Of a stretch of 64,000 nucleotides of DNA, positions 12,648-32,526 are shown in pieces. Source of the DNA: Rhizobiales bacterium NRL2 (GTDB taxonomy: Bacteria; Pseudomonadota; Alphaproteobacteria; Minwuiales; Minwuiaceae); contig CP016093.1 of assembly GCA_001664005.1 (NCBI GenBank), positions 2,177,001 through 2,241,000 of the forward strand. Reading direction: 5' to 3'. The position numbers were made by a program, and so were the translations under genes. Numbering within the stretch: position 1 is the stretch's first letter; the number at the start of each line of letters is the position of its first letter. The notes below the pieces were generated by a model. It was given only the letters and a program-made list of their open reading frames with translations. It was not told where the DNA came from and searched no databases.

Positions 12648-12680
12648 CGTAACTCCGTGATTTTGAATTCAGATTCTGAG

Positions 12681-16501: not shown

Positions 16502-16523
16502 CCTCCGACCAGGGACCGTGTTC

Positions 16524-17384
16524 ATGAATTACCGTCTCATCCTCGCCGGTGCGGTCGCGCTTTCGGCCGCCGGCGGCGCTGCCTGGCTCGCCAATGCGGC
16601 GCTGAGCGCGCCGCCGCCGGCGGCGCCGGCGGCCGTGCTCCAGACCGTCCCGCAGCCAGCGTCGACCGTCGAGGTCCTGGTCTCCGCCCGGCCGATCCGT
16701 GCCGGCGATCTGCTGCAGGCGGACGACGTACGCTGGCAGGCCTGGCCGAAGGACGCCATGACGGAGACATATGTTGTCCGGGCGGGCGAAAGCGCCCCCG
16801 AGGTCGCGGGCCGGGTCAGCCCGACCGCCATCGCCGCCGGCCTGCCGATCGTGCCCGACGCCCTGATCCGGCCGGGCGAACGTGGTTTCCTTGCCGCGGT
16901 GCTGCCGCCTGGTCACCGGGCGACCACCATCCCGATCGACGCCACCACCGGCGTGGCGGGCTTCGTCTTTCCGGGAGACCGTGTGGACCTGATCCTGACC
17001 TTCTCCGTCGATGGGGAGCGGGGCGACAGCCTGGCCAGCCAGACGGTGCTGCACGACCTGCGGGTGCTCGCCATTGATCAGAAGATGGTCCAGCAGGACG
17101 GCCATGCGGCCATTTCCAAGACCGCGACTGTCGAGGTGACTCCCGAACAGGCGGAGAAGATCGCGCTGGCGCTGCAACTCGGCCGCCTGTCGCTGTCGCT
17201 GCGTGCGGTCACGGCCGGGTCGGAGACGGATGCAACCTCCTTGTCGCCCCGGGCCGGCTACACCGTCGCGGGCGACGTGAGTCCCCTGTTCAACAAGCGC
17301 GTGGCAACGAACGGGGCGGGAAAACCGCCTGTCCGCCGGGTTACCGTCATGCGTGGCGGCGAAGCGAGTGAGGTAGAGTTCTGA
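16524..17384 (+). CDS. cpaB: Flp pilus assembly protein CpaB/RcpC
   Basis: 286 aa from ATG 16524. An N-terminal membrane anchor (LILAGAVALSAAGGAAWLAN) is followed by a SAF domain (VEVLVSARPIRAGDLLQADD) and a RcpC/CpaB domain containing FVFPGDRVDLILTF and the conserved VTPEQAEKIALALQLG segment. The family works in the periplasm with the secretin, probably at the peptidoglycan. Its stop overlaps the start of cpaC by one base (TGATG), showing tight translational coupling. Confidence 0.93.
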   Translation: MNYRLILAGAVALSAAGGAAWLANAALSAPPPAAPAAVLQTVPQPASTVEVLVSARPIRAGDLLQADDVRWQAWPKDAMTETYVVRAGESAPEVAGRVSPTAIAAGLPIVPDALIRPGERGFLAAVLPPGHRATTIPIDATTGVAGFVFPGDRVDLILTFSVDGERGDSLASQTVLHDLRVLAIDQKMVQQDGHAAISKTATVEVTPEQAEKIALALQLGRLSLSLRAVTAGSETDATSLSPRAGYTVAGDVSPLFNKRVATNGAGKPPVRRVTVMRGGEASEVEF

Positions 17385-18763
17385 TGCGTATCGTGTTTTC
17401 CATCCTTGTGGCGTCGCTGATGGTTGCCGTTGCAGGACCCGTCTTCGCCCAGGGCGCCGGCTCGGCGGTGCTTCGCGCGGACGGGCCGGCCCTGACCATT
17501 CCGCAGAGCGGCGGCACGCTGCTCCGCCTCTCCCGTCCGGCAGCCACCGTGTTCGTGGCCGATCCGGCAGTGGCCGACGTGCAGGTCAAGTCGCCGCGCC
17601 TCATCTATCTGTTCGGAAGGAAGCCGGGCAGCACCACCTTCTTCGCCGTGGACGCCCGCGATGAGGTGATCGACAGCCGTCCGGTTCACGTCGCCCACGA
17701 TGTCGAGCGGATCAACCAGGCCGTTCGTACGATCTCCGGCGACGCGCCTGTCCGCGTGCAGTCGGCCGGGACCGGCGTGGTCATCGAGGGCGAGGTGGGA
17801 TCCAGCGCCCAGGCGCGCGATATCAACGCCCTGGCGCGCAGTCTGGTGGCGGAGAACGAGCCGGTGATCGACCGCGTCGGCGTTACCCGTCCGATGCAGG
17901 TCAATCTCAGGGTCCGGGTCGCGGAGATGTCGCGGGAAGTGACCAAGCGCTTCGGTCTCAATGGCGATCTGATCGCCGAGGCGGGCGGCAGTCTCGCCGG
18001 CCTCGCCACGGGTCAGGCGCCGGGTGCGGGCACCGCGCTCAACCTGCGCACCGGCGGCGCCGCCAACATCTTCGCCAGCCTGGCGCTGGGGCCGATCGAC
18101 CTGAACGCGGTCTTCGACGCCCTCGAGTCGAATCAGCTTCTCACCACGCTGGCCGAGCCGAACCTGACCGCGCGGTCGGGCGAGACCGCCAGCTTCCTCG
18201 CCGGCGGGGAGTTTCCGATCCTGGTGCCCCAGGGGGACGGGACGCTGTCGATCTCGTTCAAGAAGTTCGGCGTCTCGCTTTCCTTCACGCCGACGGTGCT
18301 GGAGGACGGACGCATCAACCTGCATGTCCGCCCGGAAGTGTCGCAACTCTCCGCCACCGGCGCGATCGAACTGGACGGCTTCACCATTCCGGCGCTCACG
18401 ACCCGGCGGACCGAAACCACCGTGGATCTGGCCAGCGGCCAGAGCCTCGCTATCGCCGGACTGTTGCAGTCGGATGTCAGTGAGGACGTCAACAAGTTCC
18501 CGGGCCTGGGCAACCTGCCGGTTCTGGGCGCCCTGTTCCGCTCCGACAGCTTCCGCCGGCTGGAAAGCGAACTGGTCATCGTGGTCACGCCCTACCTGGT
18601 CCGTCCCGTCGGCCCGGCGCGTGTCGCCGTCCCGACCGAAGGCTACGAGGCCCCGTCCGACCGCGAACGGCTGATCGGCCGCGACAGCGGACGGGATCTC
18701 GCTGGCGGGCCAGCCCGGAATGCGCGGGCGCTGATCGGCCCGGCCGGCTTCACGATCGAATAG
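17384..18763 (+). CDS. cpaC: Flp pilus secretin CpaC/RcpA
   Basis: 459 aa with a signal peptide (VASLMVAVAGPVFAQG). The N-terminal pilus-specific domain contains RPAATVFVADPAVADVQVKS. A BON-like region (VVIEGEVGSSAQARDINALA) and the C-terminal secretin domain follow, including EPNLTARSGETASFLAGGEF, VPQGDG and the closing ELVIVVTPYLVRPV. It forms the outer-membrane gated channel for the pilus. The length fits the family. It lies in the middle of the operon, directly before the CpaD lipoprotein. Confidence 0.95.
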   Translation: MRIVFSILVASLMVAVAGPVFAQGAGSAVLRADGPALTIPQSGGTLLRLSRPAATVFVADPAVADVQVKSPRLIYLFGRKPGSTTFFAVDARDEVIDSRPVHVAHDVERINQAVRTISGDAPVRVQSAGTGVVIEGEVGSSAQARDINALARSLVAENEPVIDRVGVTRPMQVNLRVRVAEMSREVTKRFGLNGDLIAEAGGSLAGLATGQAPGAGTALNLRTGGAANIFASLALGPIDLNAVFDALESNQLLTTLAEPNLTARSGETASFLAGGEFPILVPQGDGTLSISFKKFGVSLSFTPTVLEDGRINLHVRPEVSQLSATGAIELDGFTIPALTTRRTETTVDLASGQSLAIAGLLQSDVSEDVNKFPGLGNLPVLGALFRSDSFRRLESELVIVVTPYLVRPVGPARVAVPTEGYEAPSDRERLIGRDSGRDLAGGPARNARALIGPAGFTIE

Positions 18764-18774
18764 AGGGGAACCGA

Positions 18775-19413
18775 ATGACCTTCGACAAGACGCCCGCCCG
18801 CGCGATCCTGCTTCCCCTGCTGGCTGTGGCGCTGTTCGGCGCGCTTGCCGGCTGCGCCGAAAATGGCGACATCTATGCTGGCCTGGAGACGCCGAAGCGA
18901 ATCGCCATCGACCGGGATATGCATCGCTTCGAGTTCGGCGGTCTTGACGGGACGGAGGCCGACTGGCGGCGGGACCGCGCACGTCTGGATGCCTTCATCG
19001 CCGCGGCGCGCGATCTGCCGAACCGAAGCCTTACGCTGTACCTTCCCAGCGTCATGAACCGGCGGGAGGAGGCGCGGGCGGTCAAGCTCGTCGCCGCGCT
19101 GGAGAATGAAGGGCTGGCGCCGCTGATCGGCGAACTGCGGGCCGGAAATGCGCATCTGGACGTGCGCACGGTAACGACCAGCGTGCCGGCCTGTCCCGAT
19201 TACAGCCGGACCCGGATCGGCCACGCCAACGGGCCGGGCAGCAATTTCGGCTGCGCTACGCTCGCCAATCTCGCAGCGATGGTGGCCGAGCCTTCCGATC
19301 TCGATGCGCCGAAAGAGGCCGGCCCGCCCCGCGGCGAGGCCGCCTGGCGCGACGCCGAGCGCCACCGCAAGGGCGAGCGCGCCGAACTCGACCGCGAACA
19401 GGTGCTGAATTGA
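18775..19413 (+). CDS. cpaD: Flp pilus assembly lipoprotein CpaD
   Basis: 212 aa. A lipoprotein signal ends in ALAGCAENGD, with the lipobox Cys at about residue 25. The mature part carries the CpaD family motifs VTTSVPACPDYS and NFGCATLANLAAMVAEPSDL. CpaD associates with the CpaC secretin at the outer membrane. It starts 11 bp after cpaC and its stop overlaps the TTG start of cpaE by 4 bp. The C-terminal tail is charged and lacks further features. Confidence 0.92.
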   Translation: MTFDKTPARAILLPLLAVALFGALAGCAENGDIYAGLETPKRIAIDRDMHRFEFGGLDGTEADWRRDRARLDAFIAAARDLPNRSLTLYLPSVMNRREEARAVKLVAALENEGLAPLIGELRAGNAHLDVRTVTTSVPACPDYSRTRIGHANGPGSNFGCATLANLAAMVAEPSDLDAPKEAGPPRGEAAWRDAERHRKGERAELDREQVLN

Positions 19414-20603
19414 ACGCGCTGACCGCCATCCGGCGTCCGGAGGCCGCGCTCGAGGCGGCCGCCTTCGTCGCCGACCCGGAAGCAGCGGCTGCCGTCCGCG
19501 CGGCGCTTTCCGACCGGTACGGTGCGGATGTGCAGGTTATTGCCGGGGCGAGCGAGCATGCGCTCGACTGGCTGGCGGAGACGCTGACCCCGGGACTTCT
19601 GGTCGTTGATCTTTCCGATTGCGAGGTCCCACTCGAGCGGCTGGAGCGGCTGGCCGAGCATTGTGCGCCGGGCACGAGGGTCATCGCGCTGGGCCTCTGG
19701 AACGATATCGCCCTCTACCGCCGGATGATCGCTCTCGGTGTCGATGACTATCTGACACTGCCGCTCGGTGCGGCGGAATTCCGCGCCGCTCTCGACCGGC
19801 TTTCCACTTCCACGGAGGAGGCCGGTACGGCCGCCGGCGATGGCTCGCATGGCCGCCGGGCGGTGGTCATCGGCGTGCGTGGCGGTGTCGGCGCGACCAC
19901 CGTGGCGCTCGGCCTCGCCTGGGCCCAGGCCCGGGGGAATGACCGGGAATCGTCGGCGCTGCTCGACCTCGACCTGTCCTATGGCGACGCCGCCCTACTG
20001 CTGGACCGGGAGCCGGCCTTCGGACTGGCCGCCGCACTGGCTGCGCCGGACCGGATCGACTCGCTGCTGGTCAGCCGGGCAGGTCTGAAGATCGACGAGC
20101 GCCTGACGATCTACGGCGGCCCCGAAGGCGCGCCGGGCCAGCCCGCGGTTGCGCCGGAGGCGCTCTCCGCCCTGCTGGGGCAGATCGGCGAAGGTCACGG
20201 GACAACGGTCATCGACCTGCCGCGCTGGATGACCGGCCTGTTCGCGCCAGTTGTCGCCGATGCCGTGCGGGTCTTCCTGGTCGCTCAGCCGACGCTGGGG
20301 TGCATGCGCGATGCCATCCGTCTCAGGGAGATGATCTCCGGCCTCTCGTCCGCCTCGGTCGACCTGGTGCTCAACCGGGTGCGCCGCGGCGGTGAAAAGG
20401 AGCTGGAGCCTGCCATGATGGCCAAGGCCTTCGGCGCCAGGCCCCTGGCGGTGTTTCCGGAGGACGCCAGGCTCGCTGTCCGCGCTTCGGCGAAGGCGCG
20501 GCCTATGGTGGCGCTGTCGGGGCGGCGGAGCCCCCACGCACGCGGTTTCGGAGCGCTCTGTGCGGCCCTGACCGGGGCCGGGGCCGCCAGGCGGAGCGAC
20601 TGA
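19410..20603 (+). CDS. cpaE: Pilus localisation protein CpaE/TadZ with degenerate P-loop
   Basis: 397 aa, apparent start TTG 19410 overlapping the cpaD stop. Residues 15-135 are a degenerate receiver-like domain (LLVVDLSDCEVPLERLERL), followed by a ParA/MinD-like ATPase domain. The P-loop reads GVRGGVGATT: both lysines of the deviant Walker A (KGGxGKT) are replaced, by Arg and Ala. TadZ proteins are known to have atypical P-loops and to mark the pole for pilus assembly. ATP hydrolysis may be lost here, though the fold is clear (LLDLDLSYGDAALLL; LVLNRVR). Confidence 0.9.
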   Translation: MNALTAIRRPEAALEAAAFVADPEAAAAVRAALSDRYGADVQVIAGASEHALDWLAETLTPGLLVVDLSDCEVPLERLERLAEHCAPGTRVIALGLWNDIALYRRMIALGVDDYLTLPLGAAEFRAALDRLSTSTEEAGTAAGDGSHGRRAVVIGVRGGVGATTVALGLAWAQARGNDRESSALLDLDLSYGDAALLLDREPAFGLAAALAAPDRIDSLLVSRAGLKIDERLTIYGGPEGAPGQPAVAPEALSALLGQIGEGHGTTVIDLPRWMTGLFAPVVADAVRVFLVAQPTLGCMRDAIRLREMISGLSSASVDLVLNRVRRGGEKELEPAMMAKAFGARPLAVFPEDARLAVRASAKARPMVALSGRRSPHARGFGALCAALTGAGAARRSD

Positions 20604-20607
20604 AGCG

Positions 20608-22185
20608 ATGCTCGGCAAACGCAGGACATCGCCGGCGCAGGCCGGGGCCGCTACGTTGGCCGGCCCGGCGCTATCCCTGGTGGATACGGGTGCTGGAGAT
20701 GCCCCTGAGGCGGTCGCCGACCGGGTGTCGGCCCGGCTGCAACTGGAACTGCCGGCGGGCACGCCGCGCCGGGAGGTCGCCGCCCGGGCTGAGGCCGCCC
20801 TGATCGACGGCCTGGGGAGCGGGGCAGGGATGCCCGATGCGCTGGCGCTGCGCGATCTGGTGACCCGCATCGTCAACACCGTCGCAAGCGACCCCGCGGC
20901 GTGCAAGGCCGACCGTGACGAAAGCGGGCCGGTCGGCGCCGCTTTCTCGGCGGTCTATGGCGCGCTGCTGGACCGGATCGACGCGGCGCGGATCGCGACC
21001 ATGGAACGGGGCGATCTGGCGCGGGAAATCGACCCCGCGATCGGGGAGCTGCTGGTCGAGCAGCAGATCCAGCTGAACTCCGGCGAACAGCGTGATCTCG
21101 TGACCCGAGTACTCGACGAGATGTTGGGTCTCGGCCCGCTGGAGCCGCTGCTGGCCGACGACGACATCGCCGATATCCTGGTCAACGGTGCCGACCAGGT
21201 CTATGTCGAGCGGCGCGGCAAGCTGGAGCGGACCGACGTCCGCTTCCGCGACAACGATCATGTCATGCAGATCGCCGTCCGCATCGCCAGCGGGGTCGGA
21301 CGCCGCATCGACGAAGCGCAGCCGCTGGTCGACGCGCGCCTGCCCGACGGCAGCCGGGTCAACATCATCGCGCCGCCCCTGGCGCTGGACGGGCCTTCCA
21401 TCTCCATCCGCAAGTTCTCCGCCAAGCGCATCACCCTCGACACCATGGCCGAGAGCGGCAGCGTCTCCCGGAACCTCGCCATGGTGCTGAAGATCGCGGC
21501 GCGGGCGCGGCTCAACATCTTGGTCGCCGGCGGCACGGGCTCCGGCAAGACGACCCTGCTCAACGCGCTCTCGCAGCTCATCGACGGCGGCGAGCGTATC
21601 GTCACCATCGAGGACGCCGCGGAACTGCAGCTTCAGCAGCCGCACGTGGTCCGCCTGGAAACACGGCCGGCCAATATCGAAGGCAATGGCGAGATCACGC
21701 AGCGGCATCTGGTGAAGAATGCGCTGCGCATGCGTCCCGACCGCATAATCCTGGGCGAGATCCGGGGCGAGGAAGCGCTGGACGTGCTGCAGGCCATGAA
21801 CACCGGCCATGACGGGTCCATGTCCACCATCCACGCCAACAACCCGCGCGAGGCGCTGACCCGGCTGGAGAACATGGTCGCCATGGCAGGCGTCAAGCTG
21901 CCGACCGAGGCGGTGCGGCGCCAGATCGTGGCCGCGGTCGACCTGATCGTCCATGTCAGCCGCATGCGCGACGGCCGCCGCCGGGTGACCAAGCTCAGCG
22001 AAGTGGTCGGCATGGAAGGCGAGATCATCACCACGCAGGATCTGTTCGCCTTCACGGTGGACGCCGAGGACGAGGGGGGCAATCTGGTGGGCCGCTACGA
22101 AAGTACCGGGCTGCGCCCGGCCTTCCTTCCGCGTGCCGCCTATTTCGGCCTCGACGGGACGTTGCTCGAGGCGATGACGCCATGA
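20608..22185 (+). CDS. cpaF: Tad secretion ATPase CpaF/TadA
   Basis: 525 aa hexameric ATPase that powers Flp pilus assembly. Visible motifs: [19 protein letters not shown] in the N-terminal domain, Walker [15 protein letters not shown], the Asp/His boxes ([34 protein letters not shown]) and [16 protein letters not shown]. It is cytoplasmic at the inner membrane, working with TadB and TadC. The N-terminal 90 residues are low-complexity and less conserved. It starts 4 bp after cpaE and overlaps tadB by 4 bp. Confidence 0.96.
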
Positions 22186-23129
22186 CCGCGGAGCAGGCGC
22201 CGCTGTTGCTCGGCGCGGCCGCGCTGGGGCTCGCGGGCCTGCTGGCGCTGGCGGCGATCATCGCCGCCGATCCGCGGCGGCCGATCCGTGCGCGGGCGCG
22301 CAAGCTCATGGCCCGTGACGGGGGCGGGGAGAAGGCCGTGGCGGCGGTCCGGGCGATCCATCTGGCAAGGCGTGGTCCCCGGCACGGCGCCATCGACCTG
22401 ATGCTGGCGCGCGCCGGCCTGCGTCAACCGCCGCTCAGGCTGGCATTGCAACTCGGCGGTGCGGTCCTTGCCGCGGCGGCGCTGCTCATACTCGTTACTC
22501 CCATGCCGCCTTTGCTGGCAGGCGCATTCGCCGCGTCAGGCGGCGTTCTGCTCGCCTTTGCGGCACTCAAGGTCCTGGCGGCGCGGCGGCGGACCGCGTT
22601 CCTCGACAAGTTTCCCGACGCCATCGGTCTGATGGTCCGGGGGCTGCGCGCCGGCCTGCCGCTCGGTCAGTGCCTGAAATCGGCCGCGGCCGAGAACCGG
22701 GGCGTTCTGGGCGAAGCCTTCGGCGCCATCGTCGACCAGATGCTGCTCGGCCGGCCGCTGGAGACGGCGCTGGCGCGAGCCGATGCCCGGATCGGAATCC
22801 AGGAATTCAGCTTCTTCGCCATGAGTCTGACCATCCAGGCCCGCACCGGCGGCAATCTGGCCGATACTCTGGAGAACCTCGCCGAGACGCTGCGCAAGCG
22901 CCGCCAGCTCAAGCTGAAGATCAAGGCGCTGTCGGGAGAGGCGCGGGCCTCGGCCCTGATCATCGGCGGGCTGCCTTTCGTGGTCGGCGGCATGCTGATG
23001 CTGGTCAGTCCGGGTTATGTCGATGCGCTCTTCGGCGATCCGCGCGGCCAGAAACTGGTCACGCTCGCGCTGGTATCCATGTTGTTCGGCTTCATCGTCA
23101 TGGCCCGCATGATCCGGTTCCGGACATGA
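22182..23129 (+). CDS. tadB: Tad pilus inner-membrane platform protein TadB
   Basis: 315 aa, T2SSF/GspF-type membrane protein. It has N-terminal hydrophobic helices, a cytoplasmic core with FPDAIGLMVRGLRAGLPLGQ and LTIQARTGGNLADTLENLAE, and C-terminal helices ending in ALVSMLFGFIVMARMIRF. These are the family signature motifs. TadB pairs with TadC as the platform above the CpaF ATPase. ATGA overlaps join it to cpaF and tadC. Confidence 0.95.
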   Translation: MTAEQAPLLLGAAALGLAGLLALAAIIAADPRRPIRARARKLMARDGGGEKAVAAVRAIHLARRGPRHGAIDLMLARAGLRQPPLRLALQLGGAVLAAAALLILVTPMPPLLAGAFAASGGVLLAFAALKVLAARRRTAFLDKFPDAIGLMVRGLRAGLPLGQCLKSAAAENRGVLGEAFGAIVDQMLLGRPLETALARADARIGIQEFSFFAMSLTIQARTGGNLADTLENLAETLRKRRQLKLKIKALSGEARASALIIGGLPFVVGGMLMLVSPGYVDALFGDPRGQKLVTLALVSMLFGFIVMARMIRFRT

Positions 23130-24124
23130 GCGACTATCTCGCCAACCTGGCGCCGGGCCTCGACCTGCGCCTGCTGGCGGTGCTGCTGGCCGCTCTGGCT
23201 GCTGCCGTGGTTGCGGGCGTGCTGTCATGGGAGGTGGCGGCGCGCCGTGCACTTGCCCAACGCGTGCGCCGCGTCGGCAACTTCGAAGCCCGCCTGCGCG
23301 AACGCAGCCGGAATGCGGCGGGGCGGCCGTCCGGCGTGCGTGCGATGATGCGCGGGCAGTTGCGCCGCGGCCTGCTGGGGGTCGCGCAACGGCTCGCCGA
23401 TCGCCTGCGGCTGCTGACGTCCAGGGACGCCGAGGCGGTGCGGCTTCGCCTGCTGCGCGCCGGCTGGCACGGGCGCGAGGCGATGGCAGTGTATTATGTC
23501 GCCAAGCTGGTGCTGCCGCTGGCCAGCGCCGCGGTGCTCATCCTGTTTCTGTACCTGCTGGAGACGCCGCGGGTGCCGGATCCCTGGCGGCTCCTGCTGG
23601 CGCTCTTCGCGACCGGTTCTGCCGTGGTTCTGCCCTCGCTGGTGCTGGACCGGCTGGTCGACCGCCGGCAGCGGAATCTCGGCGAGGCATTGCCCGACGC
23701 GCTCGACCTCATGGTGATCTGCTGCGAGGCCGGGCTGGGTCTTAACGCCGCGATCGACCGGGTTGCCCGGGAGATGATCGCGTCCTCGCCCGCCATGGCG
23801 GAGGAGCTGGCCATGACCGCGGCCGAAATCCGGCTGCTGCCGGAGCGCGATCAGGCGCTGGACAATCTTGCCCGGCGGGCGGATTTCCCTGCGATGCAGA
23901 GCGTTGTGCAGACCCTGCGCCAGGCCGCTCGCTTCGGCACCCCGTTCGCCAGGGCCCTGCGGGAACTGGCCGCGGACCTCAGGAACGAGCGGATGCTGCG
24001 CGCCGAGGAGAAGGCGGCGCGCCTGCCGGCAATCCTGACCGTGCCGATGATCTGCTTCATCCTGCCGGCCCTGTTCATCGTCATCCTGACGCCGGCGATC
24101 TTCCGCCTGATGGACAACCTCTGA
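23126..24124 (+). CDS. tadC: Tad pilus inner-membrane platform protein TadC
   Basis: 332 aa from ATG 23126, overlapping the tadB stop. Second T2SSF-domain platform protein: LPDALDLMVICCEAGLGLNA and LRQAARFGTPFARALRELA are the TadC signatures, with terminal hydrophobic helices (PMICFILPALFIVILTPAIF). It is the last gene of the plus-strand tad run. The convergent TadD-like gene ends 7 bp downstream. Confidence 0.95.
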   Translation: MSDYLANLAPGLDLRLLAVLLAALAAAVVAGVLSWEVAARRALAQRVRRVGNFEARLRERSRNAAGRPSGVRAMMRGQLRRGLLGVAQRLADRLRLLTSRDAEAVRLRLLRAGWHGREAMAVYYVAKLVLPLASAAVLILFLYLLETPRVPDPWRLLLALFATGSAVVLPSLVLDRLVDRRQRNLGEALPDALDLMVICCEAGLGLNAAIDRVAREMIASSPAMAEELAMTAAEIRLLPERDQALDNLARRADFPAMQSVVQTLRQAARFGTPFARALRELAADLRNERMLRAEEKAARLPAILTVPMICFILPALFIVILTPAIFRLMDNL

Positions 24125-24131
24125 ACCGGGT

Positions 24132-24974
24132 TCAGGCGCCGCTTTGCCGCGTCAGCAACGCCCGCCGCGCCTCCGCCTGCCGGGCGGGGTCGGCGCCGTA
24201 GAGATCGAGCGCCAGTTCGGAGATGACGGTCAGATTGCGGGCGGCGTCATCCGGCGACAGGTCCATCCGGCCATAGCGCAGCGCCTCGGCCCGTGCGCCC
24301 GAAAGCGCCAGCACCAGAGCCAGATTCTGGCGTTCCGCGGCGGTCGCGCCCGGCGCATCGGCCCTGGAGCGGAGCAGCGTCCCGGCCTCGCCAAAATGGC
24401 CCTGCAGCGCCAGTGACAGCGCCAGGTTCGCGATCAGGCTGCGGCGCTGCGGCGTTTCGGTCAGGCCGCGGCGGTAGTATAGCTGGGCCGTATCGTGGTC
24501 ACCGATCAGATCGTGCGCGACGCCGGTCGCCGACAACAGACCGGGCGAGGGCTCCGGCGAAGCTTCGACGGCTTGCGCGAGCAGGCGGGCGGCGAGTTCG
24601 GGGCGGTCGAGGGCGATGGCGCAGCGGCCATAGCCGGCCAGGGCCTGCGGATCGGCCGGCGACAGCGCCAGAGCCCTGTCGTAGTAGCCGCTGGCGCCGG
24701 TGCAGTCGCCGGCGAGGCGCAGGCTTTCCGCCAGTCCGACCAGCGCAGTCAGGTCATCCGGATTCCGCCGCACTTCGCCGAGATAGAGCGCCGCGGCCGC
24801 CTGGTTGTCGCCGCCGGCGCGGAGTTCGTCCGCGATGGCGATCACCTCGCCCGATGGCGAAGCGGCCGTTGCGTTCGTGGCCGGCGGCGTTTCGTCGAAC
24901 GTGCTGCAGCCCGTCAGCAGAAAGCCGCCAATAAGCGCACTACACAAAATATTCGCGTCAAATTTTAGCCACAT
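24132..24974 (-). CDS. tadD: TadD-like TPR lipoprotein
   Basis: 280 aa. The N-terminus is a lipoprotein signal (LIGGFLLTGCSTFDE). Tandem TPR repeats follow (ALVGLAESLRLAGDCTGASG; ALAGYGRCAIALDRPELAAR; NLALSLALQGHFGEAGTLL). TadD is a TPR pilotin-like protein needed for secretin assembly in Tad systems. Position next to tadC supports this, although it is on the opposite strand. The upstream 90 bp are AT-rich and probably hold its promoter, divergent from the MarR gene. Confidence 0.85.
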   Translation of the reverse strand: MWLKFDANILCSALIGGFLLTGCSTFDETPPATNATAASPSGEVIAIADELRAGGDNQAAAALYLGEVRRNPDDLTALVGLAESLRLAGDCTGASGYYDRALALSPADPQALAGYGRCAIALDRPELAARLLAQAVEASPEPSPGLLSATGVAHDLIGDHDTAQLYYRRGLTETPQRRSLIANLALSLALQGHFGEAGTLLRSRADAPGATAAERQNLALVLALSGARAEALRYGRMDLSPDDAARNLTVISELALDLYGADPARQAEARRALLTRQSGA

Positions 24975-25063
24975 CTTGGGTATTCGGGGCCTCGGTGTCT
25001 CGAAGTACGTAAGTACCTTGGCATATTTACATTAATTTTACGTTAGCCGCCAAGGATAGGGCG

Positions 25064-25561
25064 ATGGATACATCACCAGCAGGACGGATGGAGCGCGGAT
25101 CGATGCCAGTCCAGAACTACATGTCCCTCACGCGGCTGATAGAGCGCATGCACCGCCGCTTTCTCGACGTGCTGCGCAAGGAGCTGATCGCCGAAGGTGT
25201 CCGCGACATCAATGGCGTGCAGTATCTGATGCTCGCGAATATCGGCGATGACGAGATCATGGTCCGCGAGCTGGTGGAGCGCGGCTACTATCTGGGTTCG
25301 AACGTCACCTACAACGTCAAGAAGCTGCTGGATTTCGGCTATGTCGACCAGCGGGGCTCGGAACTCGACAAGCGCGTGATCATGGTCAGCGTTTCGGACA
25401 AGGGCCGGCGGCTGCTGGAAAGGATGCAGCGCCGCGAGCACCTGCACGCCGGCGCATTCGCCGACATGCACTCGATCGAGCAGATGCGCGGCGCGGTCGA
25501 GACGTTGCGCCGGCTGGAACGCGTCTGGGACGATGTCGTCGCCGAAGTCCATGCTGCGTAG
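25064..25561 (+). CDS. MarR-family transcription regulator, LdtR-like
   Basis: 165 aa, ATG 25064 with AAGGA eight bases upstream. Winged-helix MarR fold: MSLTRLIERMHRRFLDVL, DINGVQYLMLANIGDDEI, then the recognition region YYLGSNVTYNVKKLLDFGYV and a wing with LDKRVIMVSVSDKG. The YYLGSNV(T/S)YNVKKL motif matches the LdtR branch of alphaproteobacterial MarR proteins, known for control of cell-wall L,D-transpeptidase and stress genes. It sits between the two arms of the tad locus, so control of pilus genes is possible but not shown. Confidence 0.85.
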   Translation: MDTSPAGRMERGSMPVQNYMSLTRLIERMHRRFLDVLRKELIAEGVRDINGVQYLMLANIGDDEIMVRELVERGYYLGSNVTYNVKKLLDFGYVDQRGSELDKRVIMVSVSDKGRRLLERMQRREHLHAGAFADMHSIEQMRGAVETLRRLERVWDDVVAEVHAA

Positions 25562-25576
25562 GGTCGTGCCGAAGTT

Positions 25577-26131
25577 CTAGTCCAGCTCCGTCAATTCGCC
25601 GACCCGCGGGCGGGCCAGGGCGATGTCACGGAATGCGGGGAACAGATCTTCCTGCAGGGGCAGGGTGACGCCAGGGCTGTAGACGCCCTCCACGATCACG
25701 ACGCTTTCCCCCGGCGCGAGGGTCACCCCGTCGGGCAGTTCGGCGGTCCCGCCGGTGGCGCCGATCCGGCTGCCTTCGGCCAGGCCGCCGCCGGCCACCT
25801 GCCAGCGCACGGTCGGCGGTCCGTCGGCGCTGCCGGTCACGCCGCTGGCGATGAAGCGGCTGCGTTCGGCGGCGCCGAAGGGTGCCATGAGCCGCTCACC
25901 CGACTGGACGATGTTCAACGCCTCGCCCGAACCGAGCGTCAGCGCGCGCGTTGCCGCGTCTGCCATGGTCCACGTGGCGTCCTGCAGCCTGGACTTGAGC
26001 AGGATATAGCGGCCCGCGTCGAAAGCGGTCACTGTCAATCCGATCAGGATGGGCAGCGCCAGGGCGAACTCCAGCGCGGCACTGCCGCCGCGGTCGCTCA
26101 GCAGACGGCGTATCGGCTCAGAAGGGTTCAT
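25577..26131 (-). CDS. TadE/TadF-like pseudopilin
   Basis: 184 aa. The N-terminus has the TadE-type pattern RGGSAALEFALALPILIGLT, a Gly followed by a Glu-containing hydrophobic helix, as in prepilin substrates of CpaA. The rest is a small exported domain (FDAGRYILLKSRLQDATWTM; GVTLAPGESVVIVEGVYSP). Minor pseudopilins of this kind prime or stabilise Flp pili. It overlaps the preceding pseudopilin gene by 14 bp and is last in a three-gene run. Confidence 0.88.
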   Translation of the reverse strand: MNPSEPIRRLLSDRGGSAALEFALALPILIGLTVTAFDAGRYILLKSRLQDATWTMADAATRALTLGSGEALNIVQSGERLMAPFGAAERSRFIASGVTGSADGPPTVRWQVAGGGLAEGSRIGATGGTAELPDGVTLAPGESVVIVEGVYSPGVTLPLQEDLFPAFRDIALARPRVGELTELD

Positions 26132-26660
26132 TCTGCACCGTCAGCGTGGTGGTGAGCACGCGCCCTTCGAACAGCCGGCCGATCCCCGGCGTGATGGCCC
26201 GCCAGACATGTTCCAGACGGTAGACGACGACATCGGACGCGCCGCCGGCGCCCGGGACGCCTGCGCCGTCGTCGCGGATTCCGTTGCCATTGTTGTCCGT
26301 GAACGGCTCCGAAGGGTCGTGGACGCCGTCACCGTCGCTGTCGGTGAACGGCTCGGCCGGCCCGGCCTCGCCGAAGCCGGCGTGAGCCGCAGCGGTCACC
26401 CGGATCTCGTCCGCCGGCACGATGCCCGCGGTGGCCCGCTCGACGGCCGCCGCGATCCAGGCGCCGTCGTCGGGCGCGCGTCCCGTCATGCCCAGCCGCA
26501 CCGCGCGGTGCGCCGCCGTATCCATCGCCTGCCGCGCGAAGCCGATCATGGAGATCTCGAAGACCGTCGTCATCAGGCTCAGCGCAACCCCCGCGATCAG
26601 GGCGAATTCGACCGTACTGGCGCCGCCGCGGTCCCGCAGTAGTCGGGCCAGCGTGCTCAT
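26118..26660 (-). CDS. TadE/TadF-like pseudopilin with Ca-loop-like insert
   Basis: 180 aa. RGGASTVEFALIAGVALSLM is the pseudopilin helix with the conserved Glu. Around residues 105-130 lie two Asp/Asn-rich loops, DSDGDGVHDPSEP and DNNGNGIRDDG, each preceded by EPFT. They resemble DxDxDG calcium-binding loops, a feature not part of the TadE core. The C-terminus (RLEHVWRAITPGIGRLF) is conserved-looking. The start overlaps the VWA gene stop by 4 bp. Confidence 0.85.
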   Translation of the reverse strand: MSTLARLLRDRGGASTVEFALIAGVALSLMTTVFEISMIGFARQAMDTAAHRAVRLGMTGRAPDDGAWIAAAVERATAGIVPADEIRVTAAAHAGFGEAGPAEPFTDSDGDGVHDPSEPFTDNNGNGIRDDGAGVPGAGGASDVVVYRLEHVWRAITPGIGRLFEGRVLTTTLTVQNEPF

Positions 26661-28126
26661 TCGACGATCCTCGGCCGGGTCAGTTCACGCCCGATCGCCC
26701 CGAAGGCGCTGGCCAGGGTCTCGTTGTCGGGCGAATGGAAGTAGTTCTCCGGCCGGCTGGCGCAGGCGCGGTAGAGCGCTTGTGTGCCGCTGTCGGGTGT
26801 GCTGCCGAAGGTGATGGTGAAGATGCGGATGTCCTCGGCCTTCATCGCGTCGCATATGCGCTGCAGCCGACGGTCGACCTCCCGGCGGGCGTCGTTCAGG
26901 GAGCCATAGCCGAAGTCGTGCAGCCGGCCATAGGCGGTGAAGTCGGAGCCGCCCGGCCCGCGGCCGTCATTCTCATCGTGGTCGCGCCAGTCGTAGAACT
27001 GGTTCTGGCCGTCGGTGAGCAGGATCGCCACCTTCTCCATGAGCGGAGTACCCCGGGCCAGGGGCATGGTCTCGGGCGTCGGGCCACCCCACTGGCCCCG
27101 CCAGCGGGGCGAGATGGTGCGCCAGCCCCATGCGAGGCCCAGATTGCCGGTCGTGCCGCCACGGTGCCAGGGCAGCATCTCGTCGATGGCGGCCAGAACC
27201 GTGTCGCGGTGGTTGGTCAGGGAAGTGATCGCCGGCCCGCAGCCCAGATTGGGACCGCGGCCGTTGTTCTGCGCATCGTTGCGCTCGTCGATCTCCGGCC
27301 AGTCGTTGTCGTCGGCCCTGGGGTAGAGGAAGCTCTCGAACGGCGCGGCAGACGGCGGCGTGTCGGTCTGATCGTCACCGGCGCCGCGCGCCATGACGCA
27401 GCCCTTCCAGGCGCCCGGATGGAACGGGCTTTCTCCCGACAGGGCCGGGTCGCTGAGCCGCAACCAATCCTGTCGGTGGGCGCCCACATTGACGGTCGCC
27501 GTATAGGGGACGACGGACACCCACAGGTCGTCCAGGCGCTCGTTCTCTCCGTAAAGATCCTGCACCAGCCCCCGGGCCGCCGCCTTCATGGCGTCGATCT
27601 TGCCGCCCGAGCGCATGGAGCCGGTGTTGTCCATGATCAGCGCCACCTCGGCGCCGCCATTGATCCGCTCCACCACCGTGCGCCGGTTCAGGTCGATGCT
27701 GTCGATGTCAAGCACGCCAAGGAAGACGGTTGGCAGCGCCAGGCTGGCCTGCGCCGTGACGAAGTCACCGCGGGCATCGGTCGTCACGCCGAAGCCGGTG
27801 AGGGTCGCGCCCATGAATCCGGGCGGGAAATTGGCGTCGAACCAGCGCCGGGCCTCGGGCTCGACGGCGGCCCCCCGCGGCAGACGCCCTGCCGCCAGCG
27901 CGGCCGCGTCGAGGGCGCGCGCCAAGCGGGACTGGGTGATCATGGCCAGGCTGGAATCGACGGCAACCCCGACAGCGGCGGTCATGGGCAGCAACGCGAC
28001 CGCCACCAGGGCGGCCATGCCGCCATCACGGGCCCGCAGCAGGCGCCGGGCGATGCCCGACAGCGCGGGGCGTGCACCGCTGCCAGCGCTTCGTCGCTTT
28101 CCCCGCCATGTCCCGTGTCCCGTCAT
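26657..28126 (-). CDS. TadG-like pilus protein with VWA domain
   Basis: 489 aa from ATG 28126; a longer TTG start at 28231 was judged less likely. DGGMAALVAVALLPMTAAVG is the TadE/TadG-type N-terminal helix, and MITQSRLARALDAAALAAG is typical of TadG. A von Willebrand factor A region follows with the MIDAS-like VALIMDNTGSMRSGGKIDAM and a later VAILLTDGQNQFYD. Several Asp/Asn-rich stretches (ENDGRGPGGSD) occur. It is probably an exported, surface-exposed minor component with adhesion potential. It is first in the three-gene pseudopilin operon. Confidence 0.88.
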   Translation of the reverse strand: MTGHGTWRGKRRSAGSGARPALSGIARRLLRARDGGMAALVAVALLPMTAAVGVAVDSSLAMITQSRLARALDAAALAAGRLPRGAAVEPEARRWFDANFPPGFMGATLTGFGVTTDARGDFVTAQASLALPTVFLGVLDIDSIDLNRRTVVERINGGAEVALIMDNTGSMRSGGKIDAMKAAARGLVQDLYGENERLDDLWVSVVPYTATVNVGAHRQDWLRLSDPALSGESPFHPGAWKGCVMARGAGDDQTDTPPSAAPFESFLYPRADDNDWPEIDERNDAQNNGRGPNLGCGPAITSLTNHRDTVLAAIDEMLPWHRGGTTGNLGLAWGWRTISPRWRGQWGGPTPETMPLARGTPLMEKVAILLTDGQNQFYDWRDHDENDGRGPGGSDFTAYGRLHDFGYGSLNDARREVDRRLQRICDAMKAEDIRIFTITFGSTPDSGTQALYRACASRPENYFHSPDNETLASAFGAIGRELTRPRIVE

Positions 28127-28377
28127 GCCCCGGATTGCCTGTCCTTCGGAAGCCCACTCGGATCCGCCGAGCCACTGATACGGCCCGGCGCCCGACAGCG
28201 TTCTTTTTCGCCCAGACCCCGGAAAACTCAATTTTTTCTATTTGATCCGAATTCGAACCATCGTCGTGGTTCCCGGCCGGACGGGCGCGCGGGGGAGTGG
28301 CTTGACCGGCCGGATAAAGCAACTGTTAAGCTTGATCGCATAGCTATGGGGCCGGCCAGCGTATCCGGGAGTGAAGC

Positions 28378-29940
28378 GTGCGTTTCGAGACAATGGACGA
28401 GGGGGGACTCGCAACCACTCCGGTCGGCTTCCTCTCCAGCCTCCTCAATACGATCGGCATTCCGGTGTTCGTCATCGGCGTGCGCGACGACGGCTACGAG
28501 ATCGAGTTCGTCAACGCCTTCTACGAGAACGCCTTCGGCATCGATGCGGCCGAACTGAACGGTCGGCGGCTGGAAGACGTACTCTCGCCGCAGCAGGCGG
28601 AGGCGGTCGCCCGCAACTACCGACGCTGCATCGAGGGTGGGGATGTCGAGCAGTACGACGAGGAGATCGTGCTGCCGAGCGGATTCTTCTTTGCCCGCAC
28701 GGTACTCACGCCCCTCCGTGACGGCGGGCGCGTCGTGCGGCTGATCGGCACGACGCTGGATCTGACGGACCGCCGGCGGCTGGAACTGGAACTCGCCACG
28801 GCCCGCGACAGGGCCGAAGTCGCGAACACCGCCAAGTCGAGCTTCATGGCCAACATGAGTCACGAACTGCGCACGCCGCTCAACGCCGTGATCGGCTTCT
28901 CGGAGATGCTCGGCTCGGAACTGTTCGGGCCGCTCGGCAACGAAAAGTACAGGAGCTATGTCGACGATATCCGGTTCGCCGGCCGGCACCTGCTCGACGT
29001 CGTCAACGATATCCTGGACCTCGCCCGCATCGAGAGCGGGTCGACGGAAATGGTCGAGGAGGACTGCCCGGTCGACGACCTGATCGATGAGGCGATCCGC
29101 CTGACTTCGGAACGGTCTGAGGCGGGTGGAAAATTCGTCGATCGCGGGCGCTGTCCGTCCGACATCACCGTTTTCGCGGACCGCCGGATGTTGCGGCAGG
29201 CCCTGGTCAACCTGATCGCGAACGCGCGCAAGTACATGAAGCCGGGCGGTCGGATCCTGGCGGGCGCGGAACTGCTGGACGATGGCCGGATCGCCTTTTT
29301 CGTCACCGATACCGGCAGGGGTATCGCCGCCCACGATCTGCCCACGGCGCTGGCGCCGTTCGGCCGGATCGACCATGCCTATGACGGTCAGACCCAGGGT
29401 GCGGGGCTCGGCCTGCCTATCACGCGCGCCCTGATCGAGGTCCATGGCGGCAATATCTACGTCAACAGTCAGCCCGACATCGGCACGACGGTGTTTCTGG
29501 TGCTGCCGGCGAGGCGGGTCCAGGCGCCCGAAGGCCAGCGTCCCGCGCCTTCGGTGGAGGGTCTGAAGGCGTTCTTCACCATCGACGGCGTCGATGTGCC
29601 TGCCGAAGCGGTCCGGATGGATGACGGGCAGTTGAACCGGCTGCCGGTAGGCGCTGTCCTGCTGGACGACAGCGGGCGGGTGCTGAAATACAACGACACC
29701 GAATCCGGCTTCTCCGAAATGCGGCCCGAAAGGGTGATCGGGCGCAGCTTCTTCCGCGAGGTCGCGCCCTGCACGTTCACCGACGCGTTTCACGGGCGCT
29801 TTCGCGACGTCAGCCAGGGGCGCTCCGTCAGCGAACTGTTCAGCTACGTCTTCACCCTGCGCCGGACCTGGAAGGTTCTGATCGAGATGCGGCCGGGCGC
29901 CGACGCGGGCACGGTCTGGTTGTTCATCCGCTGGGTCTGA
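28378..29940 (+). CDS. PAS histidine kinase with C-terminal photoactive yellow protein domain
   Basis: 520 aa, GTG start at 28378 with GGGAG upstream. Order: PAS (about 15-130), HisKA with His162 (MSHELRTPLNAV), HATPase (LIANARKY; VTDTGRGIA; GAGLGLPITR) to about 375, then a terminal domain of about 125 residues. That domain matches photoactive yellow protein: MDDGQLNRLPVGAVLLD, LKYNDTES, VIGRSFFREVAPC and a closing VWLFIRWV. Tyr438, Glu442 and Cys465 keep the exact spacing of PYP Tyr42, Glu46 and Cys69, the p-coumarate chromophore pocket. PYP Thr50 is Ser446 and Arg52 is Met448. No transmembrane segment is seen, so it is probably a soluble blue-light or PYP-fold sensor kinase. No chromophore-synthesis genes are nearby. 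Confidence 0.88.
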   Translation: MRFETMDEGGLATTPVGFLSSLLNTIGIPVFVIGVRDDGYEIEFVNAFYENAFGIDAAELNGRRLEDVLSPQQAEAVARNYRRCIEGGDVEQYDEEIVLPSGFFFARTVLTPLRDGGRVVRLIGTTLDLTDRRRLELELATARDRAEVANTAKSSFMANMSHELRTPLNAVIGFSEMLGSELFGPLGNEKYRSYVDDIRFAGRHLLDVVNDILDLARIESGSTEMVEEDCPVDDLIDEAIRLTSERSEAGGKFVDRGRCPSDITVFADRRMLRQALVNLIANARKYMKPGGRILAGAELLDDGRIAFFVTDTGRGIAAHDLPTALAPFGRIDHAYDGQTQGAGLGLPITRALIEVHGGNIYVNSQPDIGTTVFLVLPARRVQAPEGQRPAPSVEGLKAFFTIDGVDVPAEAVRMDDGQLNRLPVGAVLLDDSGRVLKYNDTESGFSEMRPERVIGRSFFREVAPCTFTDAFHGRFRDVSQGRSVSELFSYVFTLRRTWKVLIEMRPGADAGTVWLFIRWV

Positions 29941-30005
29941 GTTCCTTCCCTCCTAGCCTTTCGAGAGGCTGACGCGGCGGCGCGTGCTTGTTAGCGTTGC
30001 CTGTC

Positions 30006-30650
30006 ATGCGAAAAGGATTGCGAACGCGAATGCCTCACGGTCGCGCGCATGTGTTGGCCGCGGCCGCGGCCCTGTTGCTGGCGGCGACGCTGACGGGATC
30101 GGGGCTGGCGGAACCCTCGCCGGTCGGCCATGTCGACGCCCAGGAGGGCGAGGTGCTGGCGCAGCGGCCCGGCGAGGCCCGGGAACTTCGCCACGGCATG
30201 GCGGTTTTCCGCGACGATGCGCTGATCACCGGGAACCGCGCGAAAGTGCGTATCGCTTTCGATGACGGCTCGGCAATGACGGTCGGCCCGGAAACCCGCG
30301 TCGAAGTGGAACGCTTCGCGCCGGGCTCAGCGGGCTTGTTCGACCTCATCTATGGCGCGGTTCGGATTCTGCTGACCGACAGCGACGGCGGCCGGGATGT
30401 CTCCGTGCGTGCGCGTACCGCGACGGCTTCGGTCCGCTCGACGGGGCTGATCGTTTCCACCGATCCGCAGACGACCGGCGTCTTCGTTCTGGAAGGGCGT
30501 GTGTCGGTCAGCGCGCCCGGCCATGACGAGACGGTCGGCTTGCAGGCGGGGCAGGGCAGCGACATCCCGCTTGGCGAGCCGCCGGGACGCGCCAAGCGCT
30601 GGCCGCCGGCCCGTGTCGAGGCATTGCGCGCCCGGACCCGGATTGAGTGA
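30006..30650 (+). CDS. FecR-domain periplasmic protein
   Basis: 214 aa from ATG 30006 (29988 and 30030 are alternatives). Signal peptide AAAALLLAATLTGSGLAEP. FecR-type beta domain: GHVDAQEGEVLAQRPGE, LITGNRAKVRIAFDDGSAMT, ETRVEVERF, VRARTATASVRSTGLIV and a VFVLEGRVSVSAP strand. It is not the TonB/sigma FecR with an N-terminal helix but the stand-alone exported version. It overlaps the start of the CHASE2 cyclase gene, so a joint envelope-sensing role is likely (inference). Confidence 0.82.
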   Translation: MRKGLRTRMPHGRAHVLAAAAALLLAATLTGSGLAEPSPVGHVDAQEGEVLAQRPGEARELRHGMAVFRDDALITGNRAKVRIAFDDGSAMTVGPETRVEVERFAPGSAGLFDLIYGAVRILLTDSDGGRDVSVRARTATASVRSTGLIVSTDPQTTGVFVLEGRVSVSAPGHDETVGLQAGQGSDIPLGEPPGRAKRWPPARVEALRARTRIE

Positions 30651-32526
30651 CGCGGTTCGCAACGGCGGCGCCGGGCGTTCGCGTTGGCTGCCGCCCTTCG
30701 CGACCATCGCGGCCGGCGCGCTGATCTACCTGCTGGCCTACGAGGCGCCAATGCTCCGGGCGCTGGAGGGCCGCACCGTCGACTGGCGGTTCCAGGTGCG
30801 GGGCACCGCGACAGCGGAGCCGGAAGTGCTGCTTGTCCTGATCGACGACAGCAGCATCGCCAGCGCCGGCGGATGGCCGTTGCCGCGCCGCGTCCTGGCG
30901 GATGCCGTGACAGCGTTGCGTGATGCCGGCGCGCGCGTGATCGCCCTCGACCTGCTGCTGGCCGATCCCCAGGGCGAAGGCGACATGGAGCTTGTCCGCC
31001 GCGTCGGCGCCGCCGACGACGTGGTGGTCCCCTTCGCGTTCGTCTTCGACGGCGGCGGGGCGCGTGCGCCGCCCGCGATACGGGAGGCTGCGGTCGACAT
31101 CCGGCAGGGTATCGGCACCGGCGGCGGACGGGGCGGCGTGGTCCCGCCCTTTCCCGCGCTCGCTCGGGCCGCCGCGATGGGACATGCCGAGGTGATCGTG
31201 GACGCCGACAACAGGCTGCGCTTTCTGCACGCGGCGATCCCGCACCAGGGTCAGCTGTATCCCGCCCTGCCGGTGGTCGTGGCCCAGCGCCATCGCACGC
31301 CAGGCTCCGGCATCGCGGTCAGTGCACGGGATGGCCTGAGTCTCGGCGACGCATCCTTTCCACTGGATGGCGCCCTGCGCCTGCCGATCGATTTTCCCGG
31401 TCCCGCCGGCAGTCTGCCGTCCTGGTCGCTTGACGATCTGCTGGCGGGCGGGGTTCCGGACAGGGCAGTGGAGCGGCGGGCCGCGTTCGTCGGCGTGGCG
31501 GCGACCGGCCTGGGCGACCGGTTCGCGACGCCTTTTGGCCCCGGCGTTCCGGGTGTCGAAGTGCTGGCGTCGGCGGCCGACAACCTGATTTCGGGCCGCA
31601 CGCTCCGTCATGATGCGCTGACGCGGATGGTGAGCTTCGCGGCCCTGCTGACCGGTGGCGTCGCCTTTGCGCTGTTCGCCGGCCGGGCGCGCCCCGGCAT
31701 GGCTGCTGCCGGGTGCGGCGTGCTCCTGGTCACGTGGCTGGCCGGACTGCAACTGGCCTTCGTGCGGGGCGGGTGGTGGATCGATGCGGCCCTGCCGACC
31801 GCCACGATGCTGGCCGCCGCAGCGGCAGCCGCCTTGCCGCGGATCATCAGCACCGATCACGCCAGGCGCCGGTTGTCGCGATATGTGCCCACCGGATTTG
31901 CCGAGGCGCTGGGTCGGGATGAGCCGGGATTCGGCCGGGGCCGCCGTCCGGCGACGATCCTTTTTGTCGACATCCGCGGCTTCACCACACTCAGCGAAGC
32001 GCTCGGGCCGGAACGGTCGGCGGCCCTGCTGGAAGGATTCTACGCTGTTGTGGAAGCCTCGGTGGAGGCCCATGACGGCGCCATCGACAGCTATCTGGGC
32101 GACGGCGCCATGGCCGTCTTCGGTATGGCCGCGCCGGCGCCGGACGATCCGGTCCGCGCGCTCGCCTGCGCCCGGCACATGGCAGGCCGTCTCGAGGCCT
32201 GGTCGGGCGGGACGGACACGCCGGCCGACTGGCGCTGGGGCTTCGGCATCGGCGTGCATCACGGGCCGGTGGTCGTCGGCCCGATCGGCGGGCGGCGCCG
32301 GTTGGAGCTCACCGCAACCGGCGACACCGTGAACGTGGCCAGCCGCCTTCAGGCGCTTGGCGCGGACCTGGCGGCGACCGTCGTGATCAGCGAAACCGTG
32401 GCCGCCGCGGGGCGCGCGACAGGTCGAACGGACCTGCTCGACGGCTTCGAGGCTCTGCCCGGGCAGACCGTGCGCGGCCGCCGGGAACCGCTGGACCTCC
32501 ACGTGCTGGCCCGGACGGCATCCTGA
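30643..32526 (+). CDS. CHASE2-domain class III adenylate/guanylate cyclase (second copy)
   Basis: 627 aa from TTG 30643, overlapping the FecR-like stop by 8 bp; no ATG or GTG is better placed. Layout: membrane helix (PPFATIAAGALIYLLAYEAP), periplasmic CHASE2 (VLLVLIDDSSIASAGGWPLP; RAAFVGVAATGL; PGVEVLASAADNLI), membrane helices (about 330-405), then a cyclase domain. Metal aspartates occur in ILFVDIRGFTTLSEA and YLGDGAMAVFGMA, and the C-terminal nucleotide region is ELTATGDTVNVASRLQ. It has the same architecture as the cyclase at 12681-14780 but its sequence differs clearly, so it is not a recent duplicate. Confidence 0.88.
   Translation: MSDAVRNGGAGRSRWLPPFATIAAGALIYLLAYEAPMLRALEGRTVDWRFQVRGTATAEPEVLLVLIDDSSIASAGGWPLPRRVLADAVTALRDAGARVIALDLLLADPQGEGDMELVRRVGAADDVVVPFAFVFDGGGARAPPAIREAAVDIRQGIGTGGGRGGVVPPFPALARAAAMGHAEVIVDADNRLRFLHAAIPHQGQLYPALPVVVAQRHRTPGSGIAVSARDGLSLGDASFPLDGALRLPIDFPGPAGSLPSWSLDDLLAGGVPDRAVERRAAFVGVAATGLGDRFATPFGPGVPGVEVLASAADNLISGRTLRHDALTRMVSFAALLTGGVAFALFAGRARPGMAAAGCGVLLVTWLAGLQLAFVRGGWWIDAALPTATMLAAAAAAALPRIISTDHARRRLSRYVPTGFAEALGRDEPGFGRGRRPATILFVDIRGFTTLSEALGPERSAALLEGFYAVVEASVEAHDGAIDSYLGDGAMAVFGMAAPAPDDPVRALACARHMAGRLEAWSGGTDTPADWRWGFGIGVHHGPVVVGPIGGRRRLELTATGDTVNVASRLQALGADLAATVVISETVAAAGRATGRTDLLDGFEALPGQTVRGRREPLDLHVLARTAS

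Follow-up and report, generated by a model that had tools for sequence, protein, structure and literature searches.

Among described multidomain photoactive yellow proteins (PYPs), Ppr of Rhodospirillum centenum (PDB 1mzu) combines an N-terminal PYP domain with a phytochrome module and a histidine kinase, and in MCP-PYP fusions the output is a chemoreceptor. The converse order, a kinase with a C-terminal PYP domain, is already in print (2025, PMC12826048), and a full-text literature search, judged at listing level, surfaced no further publication on it. Here we describe a protein of this order from the 64,000-nucleotide stretch of the Rhizobiales bacterium NRL2 chromosome analysed in this work (the window). 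Like Ppr, it places PYP in a histidine kinase, and its PYP domain is 42% identical to that of Ppr over 106 columns; in contrast to Ppr, it has neither an N-terminal PYP domain nor a phytochrome module, and it falls in a separate tree group. It differs from the MCP-PYP fusions (for example locus L036) in having a kinase rather than a chemoreceptor as output. What is newly added is the kinase-PYP group itself, a loop deletion within it, the p-coumaryl-CoA ligase (pCL) neighbourhood of its Skermanella members, and the absence of such a ligase from the window genome. We propose, with moderate confidence, that the gene product is a two-component sensor kinase carrying a C-terminal PYP domain as its blue-light sensor. 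The gene and its parts are as follows.

28378-29940, plus strand: kinase-PYP gene, 520 amino acids; GTG start by mechanical call, ATG at codon 6; assigned by Pfam and TIGR02373.
28429-28791, plus strand: N-terminal PAS domain, about residues 18-138 (Pfam PAS_4 30-134, PAS 19-125).
28831-29040, plus strand: HisKA, residues 152-221 (Pfam), with His162 in SHELRTPLN, which we take to be the phospho-acceptor.
29179-29514, plus strand: HATPase_c, residues 268-379 (Pfam), containing DTGRGI and GAGLGL, presumably its G boxes.
29515-29550, plus strand: flexible joint between the ATPase and PYP domains, residues 380-391, pLDDT below 50 in the full-length model.
29563-29937, plus strand: PYP domain, residues 396-520, with Tyr438, Glu442 and Cys465; Ser446 and Met448 occupy positions 50 and 52, and the Met100 position is deleted.

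All four domains (PAS, HisKA, HATPase and then PYP) lie in a single open reading frame. Pfam and motif reading identify a histidine kinase of the HisKA type, with a phospho-acceptor histidine in HisKA and a G-box HATPase_c domain, while TIGR02373 and Pfam together show that the Ppr/Ppd arrangement of an N-terminal PYP followed by phytochrome is missing. The placement of PYP after the ATPase domain, read from the sequence in a first-pass annotation, is borne out by the same profiles. That annotation had also held that the known multidomain PYPs, Ppr and Ppd, carry the domain at the N terminus, which is correct for Ppr but overlooks the C-terminal order already published (PMC12826048). It included neither the N-terminal PAS domain nor the deletion that removes Met100. 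In the predicted full-length model a continuous helix (residues 130-181) runs from PAS into HisKA; the model has a pTM of 0.46, and the placement of PYP relative to the kinase is uncertain in it. A frameshift or chimeric fusion artefact was rejected, as a sister genome contains a frame of identical length (520 amino acids, 96% identity) and the same domain order occurs in Skermanella.

The C-terminal domain is a genuine PYP domain. The TIGR02373 profile matched the last 125 residues with an E-value of 5.4e-30 and 104 bits, over profile positions 14-123 of 124; on the full protein it matched a single stretch (411-519), and the N-terminal PAS domain, a built-in negative control, was not called PYP. 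The score lies below the curated cut-off of 143.05 bits. With this profile, however, Xing et al. (PMC9664959) recovered only 20% of the PYP homologs that BLAST had given them, and they define the family by Cys69; on these grounds we keep the domain in the PYP family. A phmmer search of the PDB matched PYP at 1.5e-23 and the PYP domain of Ppr (1mzu) at 2.7e-20. An AlphaFold model of the domain, built from a 38-row alignment, has a mean pLDDT of 93.3, and its top 40 Foldseek matches in the PDB are without exception PYP or the PYP-derived FAST and nanoFAST. The match to PYP 2qj7 (E 2.1e-13, TM 0.86) compares with 9.7e-07 for the best non-PYP PAS domain, six orders weaker. The segments MDDGQL, LKYNDTES and FFREVAPC and the closing strand were found in frame where first reported. 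Alignment with PYP, proposed at that stage as the check, places Tyr438, Glu442 and Cys465 on Tyr42, Glu46 and Cys69 with the claimed spacings of 4 and 27 residues, and the spacing belongs to a real PYP domain rather than arising by coincidence. Shuffling the 125-residue domain 20000 times produced the pattern Y-x3-E-x22-C in 13 cases, and homology over the whole domain is the stronger evidence.

In the same alignment, the window PYP keeps Tyr42, Asn43, Glu46, Phe62, Phe63, Val66, Ala67, Pro68, Cys69, Phe92, Tyr94, Phe96 and Trp119, and carries the substitutions Phe28 to Val, Ile31 to Val, Thr50 to Ser and Arg52 to Met. The last two had been noticed earlier and taken as possible signs of a tuned photocycle or altered chemistry. 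The residues are confirmed, but altered chemistry need not follow, since Dohmen et al. (PMC12826048) find little conservation at these two positions, where the family consensus is Ala50 and Leu52, and report absorption at 432-434 nm for both PYPs with Ser50 that have been characterised. The loop between Phe96 and Val105 is one residue short in all seven kinase-PYP rows (including L023, which is ended by its contig), in 4 of 11 N-terminal-PYP rows (Roseomonas and Sphingomonas) and in 0 of 72 other rows, which leaves no residue at the Met100 position. One sentence in PMC9664959 proposes, with a caution about distance, that Met100 catalyses re-isomerisation of the chromophore. A passage search for Met100 in PMC11003764 returned nothing, and the literature retrieved by a full-text search on Met100 yielded no mention of M100A. 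From the proposed role of Met100 and its loss here, dark recovery is probably slow.

A PYP match was obtained in two of nine genomes of the order, the window genome and that of one sister species, and these two species are the only carriers of this version of the kinase-PYP protein. The sister protein is 96% identical overall, 97% in the kinase and 92% in the PYP domain. No second PYP was matched in the window genome. Of 385 genomes drawn from across the class, 9 gave a PYP match at 1e-6, the window genome counted. In the Skermanella family, 19 of 82 genomes have a PYP match. No orthologous kinase without PYP was seen in the genus, of which five further species were covered, or in the other two genera of its family, where kinases matching at 1e-60 or better are 37-45% identical; the whole gene thus seems to be absent from these relatives, several of whose assemblies are drafts, one 89% complete. 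A contig scan for relatives kept 80 of 108 and left out 28. The 80 loci were retrieved with the motifs FFR[ED]VAPC and TFT[DP][AE]FHG, so that conservation of Cys69 among them is built in; among viral contigs, 35 pattern matches gave 0 relatives.

More than 300 residues precede the PYP match in 5 of the 80 loci, all of which were scanned with Pfam. By Pfam, L014 (Skermanella stibiiresistens) is a kinase, L036 a chemoreceptor and L085 a phosphatase fusion, while L055 and L075 gave no domain besides PYP. Three further loci with matches to the window kinase (L056, L060 and L064) have an N-terminal PYP domain. The phosphatase fusion, from a member of the Polyangiaceae (L085:6723-8858), comprises a DSP-type phosphatase, PYP/PAS and an FxsA membrane domain, and would be unusual if it is one gene. 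Two proteins of about 600 amino acids from the class of the window organism (L004:49-1866 and L011:109-1866) look chemoreceptor-like by eye and have a C-terminal PYP domain; in that of L004, residue 46 is Gln and Ile replaces Pro68 beside Cys69.

The closest relatives are in Skermanella, where the kinase-PYP type was found in five of five genomes. The kinase region is visible in four of them, 49-51% identical to the window protein over all 257 residues, the fifth being ended by its contig. These proteins (L014 and L176-L178) share the domain order, the loop deletion and the tree group with the window protein; its identity to L014 is 51% for the kinase and 49% for PYP. They differ in several respects: the window protein has one PAS domain, compared with two in L014 (by Pfam) and two in L006 (by reading); it carries Met52 and Thr102, neither seen in the Skermanella rows; and its genome has no detected PYP-type pCL. 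A tree of 89 PYP domains (127 columns, midpoint root, many weak forks) was built from 79 of the 80 loci and selected others; L023, whose contig ends within the domain, was omitted, and most PYPs from the class-wide draw and the Skermanella-family search lie outside it. The six complete kinase-PYP rows, from the window genus and Skermanella, form one group with support of 99/92, separate from the 11 Ppr/Ppd-type rows, and the branch to the window pair is long (0.77 changes per column). Membership of the window protein in the group is indicated by both whole-protein homology and this common PYP branch. Descent from a Ppr relative that lost its phytochrome module is not favoured, as the kinase-PYP and N-terminal-PYP rows group apart.

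The two branches differ in the genes matched for chromophore supply. All five Skermanella genomes contain a PYP-type pCL (1.8e-65 to 3.1e-78), whose gene is adjacent to the kinase-PYP gene or one to three genes away. In one genome (G353) the pCL gene and the start of the kinase-PYP gene share four bases, and in two (G464 and G465) the two frames likewise overlap as called. Next to the kinase-PYP gene of S. stibiiresistens (L014) stand a separate pyp gene and pCL, arranged divergently. S. aerolata (L180) has a cut kinase-PYP, PYP, chemoreceptor signalling domain, pCL and lyase in this order. These genes lie on one strand (L180:7297-11394, the lyase falling under the histidine ammonia-lyase cut-off and the signalling domain being of MCP type) and form an apparent light-signalling operon. 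By contrast, searches of one type per family matched no PYP-type pCL in the window or sister genome, the best matches (1.5e-10 and 9.2e-11) being distant AMP-ligases, and no aromatic amino acid lyase (PF00221) in either. The lack of tyrosine ammonia-lyase (TAL) and pCL genes that had been reported for the window therefore extends genome-wide at the search sensitivity used.

Lyases of PF00221 occur in all five Skermanella genomes, but five of the six exceed histidine ammonia-lyase cut-offs, one per genome, and four of the five genomes have only histidine ammonia-lyase; in three genomes its gene is some 12 kb away from kinase-PYP, and in two it sits on a separate contig. The lone TAL candidate is the second lyase of G463, which sits in the pyp cluster and scores under those cut-offs. 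With a lyase other than histidine ammonia-lyase in one of five Skermanella genomes and in neither of the two window-genus carriers, most of the kinase-PYP group may lack its own p-coumarate synthesis. Skermanella strains that have a dedicated pCL likewise appear to manage with no TAL of their own, so its absence from the window genome weighs less against light sensing. Judged from gene content, the clear contrast between Skermanella and the window genus is in pCL; for TAL it involves one genome only. The 2025 survey counts 7 instances of TAL and 42 of pCL across 113 pyp operons, so not every PYP requires this enzyme pair, and it had already raised p-coumarate uptake by TAL-less bacteria (PMC12826048).

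The genes beside the kinase-PYP gene are as follows.

26657-28231, minus strand: TadG-like VWA protein (Pfam Tad, VWA), divergent neighbour at the end of a Tad pilus cluster.
29988-30650, plus strand: FecR-domain protein (Pfam FecR 3.8e-11), 47 bases past the kinase-PYP stop; TTG start by mechanical call.
30499-32526, plus strand: CHASE2-adenylate/guanylate cyclase (Pfam CHASE2 5.4e-44, Guanylate_cyc 6.7e-15); longest frame, within which the actual start probably lies downstream.

Pfam thus confirmed the FecR and CHASE2-cyclase pair previously placed downstream, and both are possible operon partners of the kinase-PYP gene. The FecR gene neighbours kinase-PYP in the sister species too, and about 20 kb around the kinase-PYP gene is common to the two genomes at 94-97% identity. 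The CHASE2-cyclase is one frame in the window and two in the sister (G004:C31:306377-308214; L213 and L221), through a real change or an assembly error. Upstream, 146 bases separate the called starts of the kinase-PYP gene and its divergent neighbour; the Tad cluster spans 16185-28231, with Tad/Cpa genes at 16185-23129, and contains RcpC/CpaB, secretin, CpaD, T2SSE, T2SSF, TadE and TadG-like genes. A promoter scan found none. No response regulator was recognised beside the kinase-PYP gene among the window products scanned, to about 40.5 kb, the sole receiver domains among these being in a hybrid kinase at 2355-6335. Elsewhere in the window, 10134-14780 on the minus strand encodes a CHAT-domain protein (837 amino acids) beside a second CHASE2-cyclase (699 amino acids).

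In the mechanism we propose, the kinase would receive two inputs, one from the N-terminal PAS domain through the signalling helix to the His-containing helix and the other from the C-terminal PYP domain. p-Coumarate would be bound to Cys465 as a thioester and held by Tyr438 and Glu442, and its isomerisation by light would loosen the PYP N-cap. Such loosening in the signalling state is known for the PYP of H. halophila. The N-cap (about residues 393-420) comes right after the ATPase domain and its 12-residue flexible joint, so the light signal would pass to the ATPase domain rather than to the helical stalk and could alter the mobility or access of that domain at the junction. The action on catalysis expected in the first-pass annotation is plausible. 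With slow recovery in the absence of Met100, the kinase may integrate light over time; its output would be phosphorylation. The chromophore would be scavenged p-coumarate activated by a general acyl- or aryl-CoA ligase, which is probable given that neither an aromatic amino acid lyase nor a PYP-type ligase was found. The window genome has 53 general AMP-binding matches (30 with loci; 24 open reading frames picked by motif). Among the 20 of the 53 that were scanned, none matched a family of 4-coumarate or feruloyl ligases at 1e-100 or better, and two exceed the cut-off of the benzoate-CoA-ligase family.

The picture as a whole, a kinase controlled by blue light through an N-cap joined to its ATPase domain and charged with scavenged p-coumarate, is in our judgement somewhat favoured. 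In its favour are the domain order, the PYP fold, the kept pocket, the low dN/dS of the PYP core, the tree group, the Skermanella pCL, the apparent lack of a TAL in most of those Skermanella genomes, and, in the full-length model, the PAS-to-HisKA helix and the low-confidence joint. Against it stand the missing lyase and pCL, the lack of a photosynthetic reaction centre (matched in 0 of 9 genomes of the order) and of an adjoining response regulator, a PYP dN higher than that of the kinase, the single PYP in the genome, the uncertain docking and the restriction to two carrier species. Between the window and sister genes, dN/dS is 0.08 for the PYP core, 0.11 for PAS and 0.16 for the kinase. The five nonsynonymous changes in the core (with 17 synonymous) all lie outside the nine pocket residues named by Dohmen et al. 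(PMC12826048). The low PYP ratio is partly due to high dS (0.27-0.35 in the PYP domain, 0.15 over the gene); in absolute terms the PYP domain changes faster, with dN of 0.022 in the core and 0.038 in the whole domain compared with 0.013 in the kinase and PAS.

The main rival to light sensing is that in this genus the pocket has been repurposed to sense another ligand, for example an aromatic acyl group that an aryl-CoA transfers to Cys465, or else the Cys465 redox state. We consider this unlikely, although the PYP-type pCL of all five Skermanella genomes is unmatched in the two window-genus carriers, and the long branch to that pair, its Met52 and Thr102, and the many AMP-binding proteins with two over the benzoate-CoA-ligase cut-off would all fit it. 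There is also a precedent in methylobacterial Ppr, for which Xing et al. (PMC9664959) describe loss of Cys69, failed docking of p-coumaric acid and a proposed redox role. The methylobacterial proteins, however, lost Cys69 and in some cases Tyr42, whereas the window protein keeps Tyr42, Glu46, Cys69 and nearly the whole aromatic pocket. Less probable still is a relic or apo PYP that binds no ligand and serves dimerisation or partner binding, its pocket kept by inertia. The usual chromophore enzymes are unmatched, the small dS between the carriers leaves little time for decay within the genus, and dN exceeds that of the kinase, but the pocket is also kept along the long branch between the window pair and Skermanella. 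A generic PAS domain with coincidental Tyr/Glu/Cys spacing is rejected as virtually untenable, because its matches to Pfam PAS_4 (1.1e-06) and PAS (2.5e-06) and its score under the TIGR02373 cut-off are set against a far stronger PYP profile match, uniformly PYP or PYP-derived structural matches, and closest kin with nearby pCL genes.

A less probable extension is a photoreceptor kinase with no pigment supply of its own: in a bacterium for which no photosynthetic reaction centre was matched, PYP would be charged solely in the presence of p-coumarate of plant or lignin origin, activated by catabolic CoA ligases, and the kinase would report blue light and plant aromatics together. In a bolder form, Cys465 would accept any aromatic acyl-CoA made by the cell, and the domain would be a covalent sensor of such compounds. 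Dohmen et al. (PMC12826048) treat the effect of PYP position in multidomain proteins on signalling as an open question. The kinase-PYP group provides natural pairs, with a nearby chromophore ligase gene in Skermanella and without one in the window genus. Such pairs allow direct tests of how the signal travels and of whether dedicated chromophore enzymes are needed, and engineered light switches would profit from an ATPase domain controlled by light from the C terminus.
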